From Chlorobiota bacterium (lineage in GTDB: Bacteria; Bacteroidota; Ignavibacteria; OLB7), in NCBI GenBank assembly GCA_016788565.1, contig JAEUSP010000019.1:1-64000 (forward strand): a DNA stretch of 64,000 nt, written 5' to 3'. Position 1 is the first letter of the stretch, and each line of letters starts with the position of its first letter. The translations under genes were made by a program, and so were the position numbers. Below are positions 51,325 through 64,000 of the stretch, one piece after another. The notes under the pieces are model-generated. The model was not told the origin of the DNA, made no database searches, and saw only the letters and a program-made list of their open reading frames with translations.

Positions 51325-51415
51325 AATGAAGGAATTTGCGTGCTGTTCAGACGAACAAGGGATGTGGCTGTGTCATCCCGGGGGCAATCGGTGGGGAAGC
51401 AAGGTGTATCAAACT

Positions 51416-51423
51416 CAAAGTTA
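51416..51423 (-). promoter_or_regulatory. Candidate -7 element TAACTTTG
   Basis: Exact TAnnTTTG on the minus strand, 92 bases before ATG 51324. DnaA-box-like nonamers (51432-51468) lie directly upstream. Confidence 0.45.
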
Positions 51424-51431
51424 TTCGCATT

Positions 51432-51468
51432 TGTGGAAAAAATGTGGATAACTCACTTGTAATCCACA
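51432..51468. promoter_or_regulatory. DnaA-box-like cluster in PorE-like gene promoter region
   Basis: On the minus strand TTTTCCACA (51440-51432) and the perfect box TTATCCACA (51451-51443); on the plus strand the one-mismatch TAATCCACA (51460-51468). Confidence 0.55.
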
Positions 51469-51501
51469 TACTCTCTGTTGAGAGGGGGGGAAGGCAAGCA
51501 A

Positions 51502-54023: not shown

Positions 54024-55568
54024 GTGACACATGCCGAACGCATCCTGATCCTTGATTTTGGCTCGCAATATACCCAGCTGATTGCTCGCAAAGTCCGTGA
54101 GTGCGGGGTGTATGCGGAAATCCACCCGTTCAACATTCCTCTTGATAAAATTCGGGAGATGTCCCCGGTTGGCATTATCCTTTCTGGCGGCCCATCCTCG
54201 GTGTACGGCGAAGATGCACCACACTCCGACCCCGGGATTTTCGATCTTGGCACTCCGATTCTTGGCATTTGCTACGGCCTTCAGTTGATTGCTTACCAGC
54301 TTGGCGGGGCCGTTGACCGCTCGGCCAAACGTGAGTTTGGGCGCGCCCATTTGCAGGTTGATCGCGCCGATTCGCCGCTGTTTATTGGCTTGCCCGATCA
54401 GTCGGTTGTTTGGATGAGCCATGGCGACTCGCTGACGGAAATCCCTTCCGGCTTTGAAGTGATTGCTCATACCGCTAACGCCCCAATCTGCGCCGTTGCC
54501 AACGAAAGCCGTTCCATCTATGGTGTCCAGTTTCATCCAGAAGTTCATCATACCCCCAACGGCGTTCAGGTTTTGAAGAATTTTGTTTATGGAGTTTGTG
54601 GCGCGGCAGGGGGGTGGAACGCTACTGCGTTTATCGAAGAAGCAAAACGTGAGATTAGGGAGAGCGTTGGAAATGGTCGCGTAATCTGCGCGCTTTCTGG
54701 TGGCGTGGATTCCAGCGTGCTGGCGGTGTTGCTGCACCAGGCAATCGGCGACCAAGTTCATTGCATCCATATTGATAATGGGCTGATGCGGCTTGGGGAA
54801 TCGCAGCAAGTGGTGGAGATGTTCCGCGAACGCTACCACATCTCACTTGATTTTGTTGATGCCAGCGAGCTATTTCTTTCCCGTCTGGCCGGCGTAACCG
54901 ACCCCGAACGGAAGCGAAAAATCATCGGCACAACGTTCATTGAGGTGTTTGAGGAGGAAGCCAAAAAATTTGCCGATGCCGAGTGGTTGGGGCAAGGGAC
55001 GCTCTATCCTGATGTTATCGAATCGGTTTCTTTTAAAGGGCCATCGGTGACAATCAAAACTCACCACAACGTTGGTGGGCTGCCGGAACGGATGAAGCTG
55101 AAGCTGATTGAGCCGTTCCGTGAGTTGTTCAAAGATGAGGTTCGGGCGGTTGGGACGGAGCTTGGGTTGCCGGATGAGTTTCTCTATCGGCACCCGTTCC
55201 CGGGGCCTGGGCTTGCGGTGCGCGTGCTGGGGGAAGTCACCCGCCAACGGTGCGATATCCTGCGCCAAGCCGACGCAATTTTCATGGCAGAACTTCACCG
55301 TTCCAATCTCTACCGTGAAATCTGGCAGGCATTTTCTGTGCTTCTGCCGATTTCGTCGGTAGGGGTGATGGGGGATGAGCGGACGTACGAGAACGTCTGC
55401 GCCCTGCGTGCAGTCACCAGCACCGATGGAATGACGGCTGACTGGGCGCACATTCCGTACGAAGTGCTGGCGCGCGTCTCCAACCAAATTATTAACGAGG
55501 TTCGCGGTATCAACCGTGTCACGTATGATATCAGCTCCAAACCCCCAGCCACCATCGAGTGGGAATAA
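54024..55568 (+). CDS. guaA: GMP synthase (glutamine-hydrolysing)
   Basis: 514 residues from GTG 54024, preceded by AAGG. Class I glutamine amidotransferase domain with the nucleophile in [13 protein letters not shown] and HPE in [10 protein letters not shown]; then ATP-pyrophosphatase domain with [13 protein letters not shown]; then the dimerisation domain ending PPATIEWE. It converts XMP to GMP. Upstream in-frame sequence to 53928 lacks family resemblance. The gene is followed 47 bases later by pepA. Confidence 0.97.
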
Positions 55569-55615
55569 CAACAACAGCAACTTCTAACATTCACATATTC
55601 ATAAAACAGAACATC

Positions 55616-57109
55616 ATGAACTTCACTGTTCAACAGCTTCAGGCTGAGAAGATTACGGCTGATGCCGTTGTTGTGCTGGTTCCGCAATCGGAAGAGAGCT
55701 TCTGGGACGGTTCAGCAGAACTAAAAAAACTTGCCGAAGCCGCAGGCCCACTGCTAACATCAGGCGATTTCACTGGCGCGCGCGACACCAGCGCGGTGGC
55801 CTACACAAGCTGGAAAAAACTTCCCCGGATTATCCTTGTTGGTTATGGCGAAACTGGCCAAGTCTCCCTTGAAAAACTCCGTCGCGCTGGCGCGCTGGCA
55901 ATTCAGCGTGCGGCTGGATTAAAGTGCAAAACTCTTGCCGTGGTTCAACCAACCATTGCCGGCTTTACACCGGCCGAACTTGCCCAAGCAATCAGCGAAG
56001 GGCTTGCTTTGGGGGTCTATTCTTACGACAAGCATATCTCCCAAAAACCGAATGGTGGTTCCCCATCGCCCGATAAAGTCACCCTGCTTGGCCTTGATGC
56101 CGACCAAGTAAAAGGGATGAAAGTTGGCGTAGCAACAGGGAAAGCAGTGTCGGATGGAGTGATCTTGGCACGCGATTTAGCGAATGCGCCCTCCAACGAA
56201 ATTGACCCACAAACGCTTGCTGCACGCGCAAAAGAACTTAGCAGCGTTGGGATAAAAGTCACCGTTCTGAGCAAAGCTCAGATTCAAAAATTAGGAATGG
56301 GGGGATTGCTGGCCGTCAGCCAGGGCGGACCAATGCCACCATCGTTCATTATCATGGAGTGGCATGGTGGAGCGCGCGGCGAGCAGCCAATCGTGTTTGT
56401 GGGAAAAGGGGTGACGTTCGATTCGGGGGGCATTTCGATAAAGCCCGGCGCAGGCATGGCCGATATGAAGTTAGATATGGGGGGCGCAGCCGCAGTGATT
56501 GGAGCAATCCAGAGCATCGCCACATTGAAGCTGAAGCGGAACGTCATCGGGTTGGTAGCTGCAACGGAGAATATGCCGTCGGGAACAGCATTCAAGCCGG
56601 GTGATGTTATCAAGCACCTGAATGGCAAAACCTCCGAAATTGACAACACGGATGCCGAAGGCCGCTTGATCCTTGCCGACGCGCTAACCTATGCCGACCG
56701 CTACAAGCCACAAGCAGTGATTGACCTTGCCACCTTGACAGGGGCTTGCCTCGTCGCGCTTGGCAACGTCGCCAGCGGCTTGATGGGGAACAATCCTGAG
56801 CTAAACAACCGAATCCGCCAAGCTGGCGACCGGACTTACGATCGTGTGGTGGAGCTTCCACTGTGGGAAGAGTATGAAGAGTTAATCAAAAGTGATGTTG
56901 CCGACGTGAAAAATTCTGGCGGGCGGGGAGCCGGGACTATCACCGCTGCATTGTTCTTAAAAACATTCATCGGCAACTACCCCTGGGCACATATTGATAT
57001 TGCCGGCACGGGGATGACCTCGCGTCCATCTGGCTACATCAACAAAGGGGGAACAGGAGCAGGGGTGCGGTTGCTGGTTGATCTTGTGCAGAACTGGAGC
57101 AACCTTTAA
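55616..57109 (+). CDS. pepA: Leucyl aminopeptidase (M17)
   Basis: 497 residues from ATG 55616. Metal-binding motifs are as in family M17: VFVGKGVTFDSGGISIKP, NTDAEGRLILADALTYAD (signature) and the catalytic Lys region; the C-terminal hexamer domain ends HIDIAGTGMTSRPSGYI and GVRLLVDLV. It removes N-terminal residues from peptides; some members also bind DNA. Possibly co-transcribed with guaA. Ended by the hairpin at 57149. Confidence 0.95.
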   Translation: MNFTVQQLQAEKITADAVVVLVPQSEESFWDGSAELKKLAEAAGPLLTSGDFTGARDTSAVAYTSWKKLPRIILVGYGETGQVSLEKLRRAGALAIQRAAGLKCKTLAVVQPTIAGFTPAELAQAISEGLALGVYSYDKHISQKPNGGSPSPDKVTLLGLDADQVKGMKVGVATGKAVSDGVILARDLANAPSNEIDPQTLAARAKELSSVGIKVTVLSKAQIQKLGMGGLLAVSQGGPMPPSFIIMEWHGGARGEQPIVFVGKGVTFDSGGISIKPGAGMADMKLDMGGAAAVIGAIQSIATLKLKRNVIGLVAATENMPSGTAFKPGDVIKHLNGKTSEIDNTDAEGRLILADALTYADRYKPQAVIDLATLTGACLVALGNVASGLMGNNPELNNRIRQAGDRTYDRVVELPLWEEYEELIKSDVADVKNSGGRGAGTITAALFLKTFIGNYPWAHIDIAGTGMTSRPSGYINKGGTGAGVRLLVDLVQNWSNL

Positions 57110-57768
57110 GCGAACGCGGAACCACGCAGTAGTTTTACCCTCATAACAGAAAGGGCAGTTCATCCACCATGAATTGCCCTTTCTTGTTATTGGCGTTTTG
57201 CACTATCGGCTTAAACAGCATCCCACCACATCAAACAAGCAGAGCAATGCCACTATGTTTCACGAAACACCGACTTGCAACCTGCGTTTTTTGAAAAATT
57301 TAAGCGGCTGTTTTCCACAACGATTTCCACAACTCCACAACACAACGGTAAAACAAGGTGGGATTGAAGGTGTGAAACCCATTGACTATCCATCATCTAA
57401 TCAACGTTATCCACCTACTTGTGGAAAGAGTGAATGTTTTCCACAAGTTTTCCGACCCGAAACATTGTTGTTTTTGGGGCTTTTTTCGCCAGAATAAGTT
57501 TTCCTCAATAGTTATCCACTCTTCCACATTCTCATTAACCATAACAATACTATAAATTATTTTTCTTTGGAAGTATAGAAGAAGAACAACTAAGACAAGA
57601 TAGTAATAGGTAGTGTGGAACATAAGCCAACAATATAATGCCAGATAGGATTGGCATTGAAATTTTGGCAATCAACCAAGACAATTTTACAGCATTCACC
57701 TTATGGCATAATGGTTGAGAGGGTTGGAGTTCTACTGTTATCACAATCACCTATTTAACCAGCTACCT
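57110..57768. other. Probable replication-origin region (oriC)
   Basis: 659-base gap with no gene. After the pepA terminator it holds several DnaA-box-like nonamers: TTTTCCACA at 57311 and 57437, ATTTCCACA at 57323, TTATCCACC at 57407, inverted CTTTCCACA at 57428-57420, and TTATCCACT at 57512. The following 150 bases are strongly AT-rich (57540-57690), which would suit a DNA-unwinding element. The nearby mnmE-mnmG pair with two parS-like sites points the same way. The minus-strand frames here are not called as genes. Confidence 0.65.
57149..57195 (+). terminator. Rho-independent terminator after pepA
   Basis: 15-bp stem with one mismatch (GAAAGGGCAGTTCAT 57149-57163 with ATGAATTGCCCTTTC 57169-57183), loop CCACC, followed by TTGTTATT. 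Confidence 0.8.
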
Positions 57769-58224
57769 ATGCGCCAGAACGACGAATGGTTAAGAACGTT
57801 TGAAGAAGTTGCCGGAAGGATCAAAGACTTTATCAAAACCAATGTTCAGGTGGATATTGATCCCCCTAAAACTGAACCGTCCTCAATCTCTTATCCTCCA
57901 ATCGCTGTTTACTACGATGCCGGTGGGGTTCATATCGCCGCCGAGCTACCAGGGATGACAAAACAGGAGATAGCTATTTCACTAACTCCAGACGATGCAG
58001 TAGAGATTTCGGGGAGTAAGCGTGACTTGATTGATACTAATCAAGCTGTGGTACAAACCAACGAACGCTACAAAGGGGAGTTTTGCCGCAGAGTAAAGCT
58101 CCCAAAGAGGCTTGATCTGGACACTGCTAATGCTTCAGCTTCATACACCGATGGAGTGCTTCACATCTATATCCCTCGGCAAGCTGCGCCGCGCAAAGCA
58201 GGCACAACAATCATCATTGAATAA
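57769..58224 (+). CDS. Small heat-shock protein, Hsp20 family
   Basis: 151 residues from ATG 57769. An alpha-crystallin domain is clear: [19 protein letters not shown], then [19 protein letters not shown] and the terminal [13 protein letters not shown]. The N-terminal region is short and charged ([17 protein letters not shown]). Hsp20 proteins hold unfolded clients for Hsp70. dnaK starts 44 bases later, so a shared heat-shock transcript is likely. No CIRCE or other heat-shock operator was recognised. Confidence 0.9.
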
Positions 58225-58268
58225 CCAATACACAAGTACCAATACACGAGATCAAGGAGCATCAAATT

Positions 58269-60164
58269 ATGGGCAAAATCATTGGAATTGACCTTGGAAC
58301 CACAAACTCAGTGGTTGCTGTCATGGAGGGGACTACCCCTACGGTTATTCCAAACAGCGAAGGAGCACGCACAACTCCTTCTGTTATCGGGTTCACAAAA
58401 ACTGGTGACCGAGTTGTCGGCCAAGCTGCAAAACGGCAGGCGGTGACCAACCCCAAGAACACTATCTACTCTATCAAACGGTTCATGGGGCGTACTGCTG
58501 CCGAGGTGAAAGAAGAAGAGAAGATGATCCCCTACGAGGTAGTAAGTGGTGAAGGTGGCACAACAGTTCGTGTTCGCATAGACGACCGCCTTTATTCGCC
58601 ACCAGAAATCTCGGCCATGGTTCTGCAAAAGATGAAGCAGACGGCCGAAGATTATCTGGGTCAAAAAGTGACCGAGGCGGTTATCACTGTTCCGGCATAC
58701 TTTAACGACTCACAGCGTCAAGCCACAAAAGATGCAGGTGAGATTGCTGGGCTTCAGGTTCGCCGCATTATCAACGAGCCAACAGCCGCGGCACTTGCCT
58801 ACGGGATGGATAAAAAAGGGCAAAATCAGAAGATTGCGGTGTTTGACTTGGGAGGAGGAACGTTCGACGTTTCCGTCCTAGAGTTAGGAGATGGCGTTTT
58901 TGAAGTAAAATCAACGAATGGAGATACTCATCTTGGTGGGGATAACTTTGACCAACGCTTGGTTGATTTCCTAGCCGATGAGTTCAAGAAGAGTGATGGA
59001 GTAGATTTGCGGAACGATGCAATGGCATTGCAACGCCTGAAAGAAGCTGCCGAGAAAGCGAAAATTGAGCTTTCCCAGTCGCTTCAAACAGATGTGAATC
59101 TTCCATTTATCACCGCAACCGCTGATGGGCCAAAGCACTTGAACGTTATGATAACTCGAGCAAAGTTCGAGCAACTTTGCGAGGATCTATTCAAACGGAC
59201 AGTTGCACCGCTGCAGCAAGCACTGAAAGATTCTGGCTTGGGGCCGCACCAGATTGATGAAGTCATCTTGGTCGGTGGTTCCACTCGTATCCCGAAAGTA
59301 CAGCAGATGGTTCGGGAATTTTTTGGAAAAGAACCTAACCGTGGCGTGAATCCGGATGAAGTAGTTGCGGTTGGTGCGGCAATTCAAGGAGCCGTTCTTT
59401 CAGGTGATGTCCAAGACGTTTTGCTGCTGGACGTGACACCGCTAACCTTGGGGATTGAGACGTTAGGTGGGGTGATGACACCGATGATCCCATCAAACAC
59501 AACCATTCCAACGCGGAAATCGGAGATTTTTTCCACAGCTTCTGATAGTCAGCCATCTGTGGAAATCAATGTTCTTCAAGGCGAACGCCCAATGGCTGGG
59601 GATAATAAGTCGCTCGGGAAGTTCCATTTGGATGGTATTCCTCCAGCTCCGCGTGGTGTTCCACAAGTTGAGGTCACCTTCGATATTGATGCCAACGGCA
59701 TTTTGAACGTTTCGGCAAAAGATAAGGCGACTAACAAGGAGCAGACTATCCGCATCACATCATCAAGCGGTTTGGCAAAAGATGAAATTGAACGGATGAA
59801 GCGCGAAGCCCAAGAAAATTCGGCGACTGACCGGAAAAAGAAAGAGGAGGTGGAGCTACGAAATCAGGCTGACCAAACGGTGTTTACCACAAAGAAGCAG
59901 CTTCAAGAATTAGGCGACAAGATGCCTGCCGATGGAAAAGCACGTATTGAGGCTGCAGCTGAAAAGCTGGAAACAGCCCTGAAAGGCGGATCAATAGATG
60001 ATATTCGCACTGCTAAAGATGAGCTTGACCGTGCTTGGAGTGAGGTTTCACAGAAGATGTATAGTGGCGGGGATTCTTCGGAGTCATCATCAACAAATAC
60101 TTCAAATGAAGAGAAGAAAAACGTTGAGGATGCTGACTATACAATCGTTGAAGATGAAAAATAG
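58269..60164 (+). CDS. dnaK: Chaperone DnaK (Hsp70)
   Basis: 631 residues. Family signatures: [11 protein letters not shown] at the start, [18 protein letters not shown] and [17 protein letters not shown]; the substrate-binding domain with its linker ([19 protein letters not shown]) and the helical lid follow; the tail is acidic. Length is normal. DnaJ and GrpE genes are not adjacent. GC content is lower than in the left half of the window. Confidence 0.98.
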
Positions 60165-60181
60165 AAGAGTGTGAACTAATC

Positions 60182-60222
60182 AAAAGAGCGAAACCGTCAT
60201 TGGTTTCGCTCTTTTATTTTGA
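60182..60222 (+). terminator. Rho-independent terminator after dnaK
   Basis: 14-bp stem AAAAGAGCGAAACC (60182-60195) with GGTTTCGCTCTTTT (60202-60215), loop GTCATT, then ATTTTG. Confidence 0.9.
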
Positions 60223-60276
60223 TCCAGCTACTATCTTGCTTCAGTAGAACATGTCGCCGTCCAAGTTTCCCATCAT

Positions 60277-60642
60277 TTATGGTTTGCTTTGTTTAAGCAA
60301 GCTAAACTTTAGATGAGGTGTTGTTGGGTTATTGGTGAAAACGTCAATAACGACGGGTTGCAGCGTGTCCATCCTTTCTAATGAAACAGATACGTAGATA
60401 TCTCCGGGATGCTCCTTCGTTGCCTTGTTCTTTTGAACATTCGCCAACACGCAACCACAGCTGGGATGCAGTTTTTCAATAAAGACTGCGCTATCTGTTT
60501 CGTTGACTAATCGAACATGCAAGCTAACATACCGCGCTGTATCGGTAACAACGACTGATTCTGGCTCCAAACGAATAGCTGCTGGTTGTGGGAGCAATCC
60601 CAAAATCAGAGGCCACAGTTGAAATAGCGGGTAAAAGTTCAT
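60277..60642 (-). CDS. DUF1573-family secreted protein
   Basis: 121 residues from ATG 60642. The short N-terminal hydrophobic stretch (FQLWPLILGLLPQPAAI) is probably a signal peptide. The family motif HPSCGCVLANV and a terminal strand pair (VVIDVFTNNPTTPHLKFSL) identify DUF1573, an Ig-like domain of unknown function common in Bacteroidota. It is the only minus-strand gene among plus-strand genes near the presumed origin. TACCTTTG (60671-60664) is its likely -7 element. Confidence 0.85.
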   Translation of the reverse strand: MNFYPLFQLWPLILGLLPQPAAIRLEPESVVVTDTARYVSLHVRLVNETDSAVFIEKLHPSCGCVLANVQKNKATKEHPGDIYVSVSLERMDTLQPVVIDVFTNNPTTPHLKFSLLKQSKP

Positions 60643-60663
60643 TGTGTTGAAGAAGTAGGAGAG

Positions 60664-60671
60664 CAAAGGTA
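60664..60671 (-). promoter_or_regulatory. Candidate -7 element TACCTTTG
   Basis: Exact TAnnTTTG on the minus strand, 21 bases before ATG 60642. Confidence 0.45.
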
Positions 60672-60753
60672 GGCAATTTTGCCTTGAAATTGCCCTTCAG
60701 TTTAGTTGATCACTACCAAGAACAAGGCAATCCATTATCGGTTTAGGCACGAA

Positions 60754-62112
60754 ATGAAGGATTTTTTACGTGATACCATCGTTGCTTTATCAACAGCTTC
60801 TGGGGAAGCAGCAATTGCTGTTATCCGATTTAGCGGGATAGCGAGCGTTCGGATTGTTGCATCGTTGATAAAACTGCGAAGCAAGAAAGAGCTTAGTTCG
60901 ATTCCTCCAAGAACACTGGTGAACTGTGCTGTTTTAGATAATGGGGCGGTCTTAGACGAAGGCTTGGTTGTTCGCTTTGCTGCTTTGGCATCATATACAG
61001 GCGAGGATTTAGTTGAGCTTCACATTCATGGCAACCCTATCATTGCTGACAGAATACTAGAGCTTAGTATTGAACAAGGTGCACGTATTGCGACTGCTGG
61101 CGAATTTACCCGTCGAGCAGTTCTGAGCGGCAAAATGAGTCTTCTTCAAGCTGAAGCTGTTGGTGCTTTGATTAGTGCTGAGTCTCGGCAATCTGTGTTT
61201 TTAGCACATCACCAGCTACATGGAGAGTTATCTAAACAATTATATAGCTTCCGTGAGCAATTATTATCACTGCTTGCCAGATTAGAACTTGAGCTTGATT
61301 TTGTTGAGGAAGGATATGCCTTTGCTTCGGAGGAAGAAATACAGAGAATTTTGAGTACTATCGGTTTATATGTTGAAGAACTGATTCGAACTTTTCCTAC
61401 ATCAGAGCGGCTATCTCGTGGACCACGGATTCTGTTGTTAGGTCGTCCAAATGCGGGTAAATCAAGCCTTTTCAATGCAATTCTGGGATACTCGCGTTCT
61501 TTAGTAAGCATTACACCTGGTACAACAAGGGATTATCTTGAGGAGCGGTTTGTTCACAATGGGGTAACGATTCGATTAATTGACACAGCAGGGCTACGTA
61601 ATGCAAGTGACGAAATCGAAAAAGAGGGCATCTACCGAGCCTTAGAAATGGTTCCGGTCTGCGATCAAATTCTCTATCTCATAGATTCCACGCAAGCTGC
61701 TACAATCATTGGAGAAACGCAGTTTGTCCATCAGCTCCAACTCCAACACCCTTCTGTTCTTATTACTTCTGTTCTGACTAAGTCAGACCTTTCCTCGAGT
61801 CTGGATGCTAATCATCTCTCTATCTCCATTAAAGACCTCACAACAGTTAAATATTTGCTCGAAGTTTTATCAAAAGACTATAGCACGAAGCAAAATACTT
61901 CTTCGTTGGCTGTGTTAAATATCCGGCAACTGAACCTATTGAAGTATATCCATAAACTTGTTTGTGAGATTCAAGAACAATCTGGTATGCCAACTGAGGT
62001 TTTATCTGCGTTGCTCCGAGAAGTTTTAGTTCCTATTTCAGAGCTAGTGGGAGAGAGTACATCTGAAGATGTGCTTAATAAGGTTTTTGGTTCTTTTTGC
62101 ATTGGGAAGTAA
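60754..62112 (+). CDS. mnmE: tRNA modification GTPase MnmE
   Basis: 452 residues from ATG 60754. The N-terminal tetrahydrofolate-binding region (DTIVALSTASGEAAIAVIRFSG) is followed by a helical domain with an inserted G domain: G1 LGRPNAGKSSLFN, GTTRDYLEE, DTAGLRNASDE, and the C-terminal FGSFCIGK that carries the catalytic Cys. With MnmG it makes 5-carboxymethylaminomethyluridine at the wobble position of several tRNAs. The parS-like site lies directly after the stop. Confidence 0.97.
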   Translation: MKDFLRDTIVALSTASGEAAIAVIRFSGIASVRIVASLIKLRSKKELSSIPPRTLVNCAVLDNGAVLDEGLVVRFAALASYTGEDLVELHIHGNPIIADRILELSIEQGARIATAGEFTRRAVLSGKMSLLQAEAVGALISAESRQSVFLAHHQLHGELSKQLYSFREQLLSLLARLELELDFVEEGYAFASEEEIQRILSTIGLYVEELIRTFPTSERLSRGPRILLLGRPNAGKSSLFNAILGYSRSLVSITPGTTRDYLEERFVHNGVTIRLIDTAGLRNASDEIEKEGIYRALEMVPVCDQILYLIDSTQAATIIGETQFVHQLQLQHPSVLITSVLTKSDLSSSLDANHLSISIKDLTTVKYLLEVLSKDYSTKQNTSSLAVLNIRQLNLLKYIHKLVCEIQEQSGMPTEVLSALLREVLVPISELVGESTSEDVLNKVFGSFCIGK

Positions 62113-62126
62113 GTTCCACGTGAAAC
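62113..62126. promoter_or_regulatory. parS-like ParB-binding site
   Basis: GTTCCACGTGAAAC, one mismatch from the palindromic parS core GTTTCACGTGAAAC. It lies in the 30-base gap between mnmE and mnmG. Confidence 0.75.
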
Positions 62127-62142
62127 CTCAAAAGGCAGCGAT

Positions 62143-63969
62143 ATGAGTAACTATTATGATGTCATCGTGATTGGCGGTGGACATGCAGGAATTGAAGCAG
62201 CATCCGCAGCAGCAAGAATCGGTTGTTCTACCTGCCTGATTACAATGACCATTTCTGCAATTGGGCGATTATCATGTAACCCTGCTATTGGAGGCATGGC
62301 TAAAGGGCAGATTGTTCGTGAAATAGATGCTTTAGGGGGGGAGATGGGGAGACTTGCAGACCTATCCGGAATTCATTTTAAGATGCTGGGAAAATCAAAG
62401 GGGCCAGCGATGTGGTCGCCACGTTCCCAGAATGATAAAGACCTCTATCCATTTTTTGCTCAGAAGCGACTTCAAGAGATTGCAAACCTAATTCTTATAG
62501 AGGGAATTGTTGATGATGTCGGTTTGCAAAACGGTGCTGTTTCTTCAGTCCTGTTGCAAAACGGGCGGCGCATTGAGTGTAAGTCGGTTGTTATTTGTTC
62601 TGGCACTTTTCTATCAAGTCGCCTTCATATTGGTGAGCAATCAAAAATTGGAGGGCGGATTGATGAACCCTCGGCTGAGTCTTTAAGTGAAACCCTACGT
62701 CAATATGGAATCGCTACCGGAAGATTAAAAACAGGCACTCCTCCGAGAATTCGTAAGGATAGTATTGATTGGAACTCTTGCACTCCTGATGTTGGAGATG
62801 CTAATCCATCCCCCTTTTCTCGCGAAACAGAGGCTGTTACTAATCAAATTCAATGCTATCTAACAACAACGACTAAAGACACCCACCAAATTCTTGAATC
62901 AGGGTTTGACCGTTCCCCCATGTTCACAGGCCGGATAACAGGTGCGGGACCGCGATACTGTCCATCAATCGAAGATAAGGTCTATCGTTTTTCAGATAAA
63001 AATGGGCATCAAATCTTTCTTGAGCCTGAAGGTCTTTCAACTGATTCTGTCTATGTTAATGGATTCTCCACCTCTCTTCCTGAGGGCATACAAGAGGATG
63101 CTTTACACACAATTCCCGGTCTAGAGAAATCTCAAATCCTGAGATATGGTTATGCCGTAGAGTATGACTATTTCCCATCCTATCAACTTCAACACTCTCT
63201 TGAAAGCAAGGCTGTTAAAGGGTTGTTTTTCGCCGGGCAAGTTAATGGAACATCCGGGTATGAAGAGGCTGCTGCACAAGGGTTAATAGCTGGCATGAAT
63301 GCAGCACTTGGCATCCAAGGTAAACCTCCAATTGTGTTAGACCGCTCGCAAGCCTATATCGGGGTGTTGATAGATGACTTAGTAAGCCTTACTATCAACG
63401 AGCCATATCGCATGTTTACTTCACGTGCCGAATATCGTTTGCTGTTGCGCCAGGATAATGCAGATATACGATTGACTCATATTGGCTATGAAGCTGGGTT
63501 AGTTGATAGAGAAACAGATAATGCCGTTCAAGCGTTGACAGAGTCAATCGAAACAGCACAATATCTGTTGAAAAACTATCGAATTAAAGAACAAGGTTCC
63601 AATGACCAAGCTGTTTCTCTGTGGCAATTACTCAAGCGTCCAGAAAGTTCGGTACAAACCATTCTTCATCACCTCTCTACTGACTCTCTATTAAGCAGAT
63701 TACTAACAAATGAAAGGCTGATTGAGCAGATAGAAATTGCTGCTCGCTATGATGGATATATTCAGCGTCAATTACAGGAGGTTGAACGATTAAAAGCTAT
63801 CGAAGAAAGCCAATTACCATCAACGATTAATTATAACTCCATCGTTGGTTTATCATCCGAAGGTCGAGAAAAGTTGACACGAGTCAGCCCACGGTCATTA
63901 GGTCAAGCATCAAGGATTAGCGGTGTTTCACGGTCGGATATAGCTATACTTTCAATGTATGTTCGATAG
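62143..63969 (+). CDS. mnmG: tRNA uridine 5-carboxymethylaminomethyl modification enzyme MnmG (GidA)
   Basis: 608 residues, ATG 62143 preceded by AAAGG. The FAD-binding GGGHAGIEAA and the family motifs NPAIGGMAKGQIVREIDALGG and RTPPRI-like KTGTPPRI are present, with the GidA-associated C-terminal domain (LGQASRISGVSRSDIAILSMYV). It partners MnmE. In many bacteria it lies near oriC. The gene is AT-rich relative to the left part of the window. Confidence 0.97.
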   Translation: MSNYYDVIVIGGGHAGIEAASAAARIGCSTCLITMTISAIGRLSCNPAIGGMAKGQIVREIDALGGEMGRLADLSGIHFKMLGKSKGPAMWSPRSQNDKDLYPFFAQKRLQEIANLILIEGIVDDVGLQNGAVSSVLLQNGRRIECKSVVICSGTFLSSRLHIGEQSKIGGRIDEPSAESLSETLRQYGIATGRLKTGTPPRIRKDSIDWNSCTPDVGDANPSPFSRETEAVTNQIQCYLTTTTKDTHQILESGFDRSPMFTGRITGAGPRYCPSIEDKVYRFSDKNGHQIFLEPEGLSTDSVYVNGFSTSLPEGIQEDALHTIPGLEKSQILRYGYAVEYDYFPSYQLQHSLESKAVKGLFFAGQVNGTSGYEEAAAQGLIAGMNAALGIQGKPPIVLDRSQAYIGVLIDDLVSLTINEPYRMFTSRAEYRLLLRQDNADIRLTHIGYEAGLVDRETDNAVQALTESIETAQYLLKNYRIKEQGSNDQAVSLWQLLKRPESSVQTILHHLSTDSLLSRLLTNERLIEQIEIAARYDGYIQRQLQEVERLKAIEESQLPSTINYNSIVGLSSEGREKLTRVSPRSLGQASRISGVSRSDIAILSMYVR

Positions 63970-63982
63970 GGAACGTTTTGAA

Positions 63983-63996
63983 GTTTCACGTGAAAC
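63983..63996. promoter_or_regulatory. parS site (ParB-binding)
   Basis: Perfect parS core GTTTCACGTGAAAC, 14 bases after the mnmG stop and at the window edge. parA and parB would be expected nearby beyond the window. Confidence 0.85.
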
Positions 63997-64000
63997 TATC

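Follow-up and report, generated by a model that had tools for sequence, protein, structure and literature searches.

Gene neighbourhood of the pepA–hsp20 gap

In the window, by which we mean the whole stretch of 64,000 nucleotides analysed here, an intergenic gap at positions 57110–57768 separates pepA, encoding leucyl aminopeptidase (55559–57109, plus strand; NCBIfam NF002083, E 7.6e-155), from a gene for an hsp20-family small heat shock protein (57769–58224, plus strand), whose NCBIfam Hsp14/Hsp20 matches are weak and below cut-off. On the same strand follow dnaK (58269–60164; NCBIfam NF001413, 1023.8 bits), mnmE (60706–62112; TIGR00450) and mnmG, or gidA (62143–63969; TIGR00136), the latter two matching above cut-off and lying at the distance from the gap that had been claimed for them. 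An earlier note on this DNA had also remarked on the plus-strand genes to the right; this holds up to the window edge and fails beyond it, where many genes of the next 20 kb are on the minus strand. Gene-strand bias gives no origin signal, the plus-strand coding fraction being alike on both sides (0.46 on the right, over 30 kb). Within the gap, pepA is followed by a predicted Rho-independent terminator (57148–57184, plus strand) with a 16-bp stem and a T-rich tail; the segment 57140–57195 folds at −27.8 kcal/mol (z −7.9). There is no Rfam match in the 64,000-nt window.

The family set used for comparison consists of the window genome (G000), a genome of the same genus (G001; locus L032 on its contig C34, JADZEY010000034.1), two genomes of another genus (G002 and G004) and a fifth genome, G003. 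Across 56001–64000, from the proposed origin through mnmG, the GC content falls from about 55% to 42–49%, and G001 shows the same dip.

The two parS-like sites that had been reported around mnmG are both real. One lies between mnmE and mnmG (62112–62127, three mismatches to TGTTTCACGTGAAACA), and the other, AGTTTCACGTGAAACT, follows mnmG as a perfect palindrome with two mismatches (63982–63997). Such sites flank mnmG also in G001, G002, G003, G004 and many other members of the class. With parS a few kb away from the gap and a ParB gene present in the genome (contig C55), a ParB–parS centromere is predicted for this region. A parS-like half-palindrome, TGTTTCACGAAACA, is found at 57255–57268, some 40 bp before the array of DnaA boxes begins, and is partly kept in G001; as it is without the two central parS bases, it was not counted as a parS site.

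A dominant cluster of DnaA boxes

The DnaA protein of the window genome is a standard DnaA (TIGR00362, 531.6 bits) and its domain IV retains the GGRDHTTV and RQ-AM motifs as in domain IV of E. coli DnaA (1j1v), so that searching for the standard box is appropriate. Nine boxes with at most one mismatch to TTWTCCACA are present in the gap, namely the five nonamers named in the earlier note, which were recovered at 57311, 57437, 57407, 57512 and, inverted, 57420, and four more. Forms accepted as strict are TTATCCACA and TTTTCCACA. The array begins with a strict TTTTCCACA box (57311–57319, plus strand), which is the same in G001, and ATTTCCACA (57323–57331, plus strand; one mismatch), which reads CTTTCCACA in G001. 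Further to the right are TTATCCACC (57407–57415, plus strand) and the inverted CTTTCCACA (57420–57428, minus strand), each with one mismatch and the same in G001, and a second strict TTTTCCACA box (57437–57445, plus strand), which in G001 is replaced by TTATCCACA, a swap between accepted forms. The weak box TTTTCCTCA (57499–57507, plus strand; one mismatch) is not kept in G001 and is possibly non-functional. Two overlapping plus-strand boxes, TTATCCACT (57512–57520) and TCTTCCACA (from 57520), together span 57512–57528, adjoin an AT-rich stretch and are both the same in G001, and this stretch is faced from the right by a minus-strand box, TGTTCCACA (57614–57622; one mismatch), which reads TGTTTCACA in G001. 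The boxes of 57311–57528 mostly share one direction.

Nine boxes compare with 0.79 ± 0.86 expected and a maximum of 4 in 1000 dinucleotide shuffles of the gap. Clusters were scored in 350-bp windows, with a box weight matrix built by us from the literature consensus. The gap scores 119.6, a value reached by 0/5000 dinucleotide shuffles of the gap (maximum 86), and 60 shuffles of the entire 177-kb contig give at most 71. Full scoring covered 601 kb of the genome, including the regions richest in strict boxes, and in these 601 kb the gap is the strongest cluster by two-fold, with the runner-up at about 57; strict-box regions elsewhere that were considered as rivals (on contigs C126, C73, C12, C83, C130, C86 and others) reach 57.8 at best. 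Pairs of strict boxes were sought genome-wide. The whole-genome pattern search returned 112 strict TTWTCCACA boxes, and in only two places, both in the window, are two of them at most 200 bp apart, i.e., 57311/57437 and 51432/51443. The gap accordingly holds an intergenic box cluster beyond chance, and a single dominant one, as is expected of an oriC.

Five DnaA-box-like sites are also present inside dnaK (59308–59665; score 56.7); they are partly kept in G001 and may have arisen by chance in conserved coding DNA.

AT-rich stretch and candidate DnaA-trio array

The AT-rich DNA that had been noticed beside the boxes is confirmed at 57527–57607 (76% AT), and no other 80-bp window of the 177-kb contig surpasses it in AT content; this stretch, which adjoins the cluster as an oriC would have it, is the proposed unwinding element. 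The orientation of DnaA-trios relative to their box is known from B. subtilis oriC. Reading from the box at 57614–57622, after a spacer of 14 nt, eight in-register triplets follow at 57576–57599 (CTT GTC TTA GTT GTT CTT CTT CTA), with T in the middle position on the box strand and A on the opposite strand, which shows the DnaA-trio pattern (consensus 3'-GAT-5', with a conserved middle A). This minus-strand candidate array and its box satisfy the published rule for box-plus-trio modules (BUS), which demands a box with at most two mismatches, a spacer of 0–16 nt and at least three triplets (PMC8287927). A run of eight triplets occurs at 2/967 boxes on the contig, the second one elsewhere on it, and the array taken alone is therefore only suggestive of an unwinding module. 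Eight in-register triplets are present in both G000 and G001, despite substitutions, and three in G002; no convincing array was found in G004, where a weak box away from the main cluster has a run of just three triplets.

Conservation in the family

The order guaA–pepA–gap–hsp20–dnaK–mnmE–mnmG is kept in G001, G002 and G004, and in each of them the pepA–hsp20 gap holds the top cluster of its contig (scores 108.5, 90.9 and 133.3, respectively); the G003 contig stops about 170 bp past pepA, inside the gap. Between G001 and the window the boxes are 91% identical and the positions outside boxes 75% (Fisher p 0.0006). Identity is 97.5% for 57510–57549 and 93–98% in the block 57510–57589. In G002 and G004 the gap sequence has diverged, although its position is kept. 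Conservation is hence of place in three relatives, and of sequence in G001.

A Bacteroidota-type lineage is suggested by two features encoded in the window genome, a T9SS type A sorting domain (L045:16065–18881) and an OmpA protein resembling PorE. The same-genus record JADZEY010000034.1 is titled Armatimonadetes bacterium SJ842, a title that may be wrong given the T9SS domain.

GC skew

The window genome is a draft of 137 contigs, in which skew is readable on single contigs and not across the whole chromosome. The skew step at the gap has the expected sign in four family genomes (p 0.006–0.036; 30 kb on each side where available), and it is weak and off-centre. In the window genome the skew is weak and its local cumulative minimum on the contig, at about 50–52 kb, precedes the gap by several kb; that of G002 is displaced well over 10 kb toward the pepA side. 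Because the skew is weak and the local minimum does not fall exactly at the gap, we treat it as supportive only.

The gap as proposed chromosomal origin

The box cluster, the AT-rich stretch, the conservation, the parS sites, a dnaA locus that is devoid of a comparable cluster (see below) and the sign of the skew step agree, and we therefore assign the pepA–hsp20 gap (57110–57768), with high confidence, as the predicted DnaA-dependent chromosomal oriC of this Chlorobiota lineage. The earlier note had read the gap in the same way, and the strong and unique cluster, its AT-rich neighbour, the family conservation and the nearby parS bear that reading out. From the box cluster, AT-rich stretch, conservation, gene neighbourhood and parS sites, all of them features of the DNA sequence, we infer that DnaA would bind, unwind and initiate at 57110–57768, and that ParB would bind at the parS sites.

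In the mechanism we propose, DnaA expressed from a distant locus would bind the array at 57311–57528 and the facing box at 57614–57622, and the DnaA oligomer would open the intervening AT-rich stretch 57527–57607, with the triplet array at 57576–57599 as its probable guide, so that helicase could be loaded at the opened DNA. The terminator at 57148–57184 would end pepA transcription ahead of the boxes and shield the origin, and ParB on the parS sites flanking mnmG, 4.3–6.2 kb away, would segregate the new origins.

The assignment would fix the origin position for a family that is represented here by draft genomes only.

Alternative readings of the cluster

The second place with closely spaced strict boxes, 51405–51480, is intergenic, with an OmpA-like gene on one side and on the other an HDAC-like gene (named by eye from its sequence, with no NCBIfam match). 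It carries DnaA boxes at 51432 (minus strand), 51443 (minus strand) and 51460 (plus strand), and about 75 bp are identical in G001. The element may act as a switch for DnaA, contribute to a split origin or serve as a promoter under DnaA control. That it forms, together with the pepA–hsp20 cluster, either a split origin or an origin with a nearby DnaA titration or recharging switch is a tentative reading that we consider unlikely; if true, it would represent a genus-peculiar control layout in a lineage where dnaA is no longer at the origin. The E. coli DARS sites likewise have three DnaA boxes at their core and lie in non-coding DNA (PMC4245941), the comparison covering this box core; 51405–51480 differs in its position only 6 kb from the proposed origin. 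The narrower alternative of a bipartite oriC, made up of the main cluster at 57.3–57.6 kb and this element 6 kb to its left, is more doubtful still. The strict pair, unique in the genome apart from that of the gap, its retention in G001 and the clusters that class members with dnaA-adjacent origins carry on either side of dnaA would fit a bipartite origin, but G002, G003 and G004 lack the tandem pair, the 6 kb that separate the element from the gap include several genes, and the main gap by itself holds every expected part.

DnaA also acts as a transcription factor, and the boxes of the gap lie directly upstream of hsp20–dnaK, a neighbourhood that is kept in the three relatives with an intact contig; they could on these grounds form a DnaA-controlled promoter of hsp20–dnaK, with replication starting elsewhere. 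Nine boxes and an AT maximum are, however, more than a promoter needs, the cluster is similar in strength to the dnaA-adjacent clusters of G016 and G006, which have the classical layout, and no rival of similar strength is found in 601 kb. Since a promoter would also leave the proximity of parS and the skew step unexplained, we regard this reading as very improbable and retain the gap as the proposed oriC.

Bacterial origins usually adjoin dnaA (PMC10225481), a trait that is usual but not defining, and which the window genome does not display. As the earlier note had pointed out, dnaA is not next to the gap; it lies with rnpA–yidC on contig C81, and dnaN (C105) and parB (C55) are likewise on contigs separate from that of the proposed origin. 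In this family, too, dnaA (with rnpA–yidC), dnaN and parB are placed apart from the proposed origin. An origin beside dnaA, with the pepA–hsp20 cluster merely titrating DnaA, would follow the usual location, and one class member, G033, does have a box cluster at dnaA, but at C81 there is no comparable cluster (one strict box, best score 41.7) and none above about 28 at the dnaA loci of G001, G002, G003 and G004, which leaves this reading scarcely credible. A plasmid-like or phage origin was rejected, as the gap is surrounded by core chromosomal genes and no similar DNA was found among 50,697 phage records (a phage-only set).

Comparison with known origins

An oriC apart from dnaA is an uncommon layout but has precedent. 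Since origins away from dnaA are already known, as in E. coli, the kind of origin is a known one; new are the pepA/hsp20–dnaK setting and the history of dispersal. In E. coli (gidA/mnmG–oriC–mioC), as here, a box array and an AT-rich unwinding region lie by mnmG and away from dnaA (PMC4446571). In contrast to E. coli, the immediate neighbours here are pepA and hsp20–dnaK, mnmG follows only after dnaK and mnmE, at a distance of 4.4 kb, and has parS-like sites on both sides, and a triplet array is present on the far side. The unwinding module of B. subtilis (DnaA-boxes 6/7 and DnaA-trios; BUS) resembles the present one in combining a box, in-register triplets and AT-rich DNA (PMC8287927, PMC6669920), but here only one facing box is present, separated from the triplets by 14 nt, the origin is not between dnaA and dnaN, and the relatives G002 and G004 have a weak array or none.

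Origin location in other class members

In G006, G016 and G034, yidC–mnmE–mnmG (with rnpA where detected) still adjoin dnaA–dnaN (joined by recF in G006 and G034); both ends of dnaA carry box clusters. The dnaA-flanking origins of these genomes share with the window genome the placement of box clusters in the mnmE–mnmG neighbourhood; they differ in keeping rnpA–yidC–mnmE–mnmG with dnaA–dnaN–recF, genes that the window genome has on separate contigs. In two complete genomes of the class, G028 and G037, dnaA, dnaN and parB are at least 150 kb from mnmG (dnaA about 600 kb in G028 and 150 kb in G037). In both, the sampled skew changes sign beside mnmG, not beside dnaA, and the top-scoring cluster of the regions scanned around this flip is located no more than 2 kb from mnmG.

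Proximity of the origin to mnmG is not upheld as a rule for the whole class: 14 of the 23 mnmG neighbourhoods in class genomes are without a cluster above all shuffles, and the cluster of G033 is at dnaA. The best reading is that in several families, including that of the window, the origin remained with mnmE–mnmG and parS where dnaA became separate. That it was dnaA that moved, and not the origin, is suggested by the shared mnmE–mnmG neighbourhood rather than by a tree. For class members whose classical origin genes are no longer clustered, this would mean that the origin in several families stays with mnmE–mnmG and parS and not with dnaA, which cautions against presuming that oriC adjoins dnaA and offers a practical rule for choosing the start coordinate of such genomes and for coverage-based growth-rate estimates.

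In G037, three strict TTATCCACA boxes are found within 204 bp (G037:C1:2319143–2319346), about 850 kb from the skew flip. There is no skew change near this trio at 2.319 Mb, which is a possible DnaA-control site.
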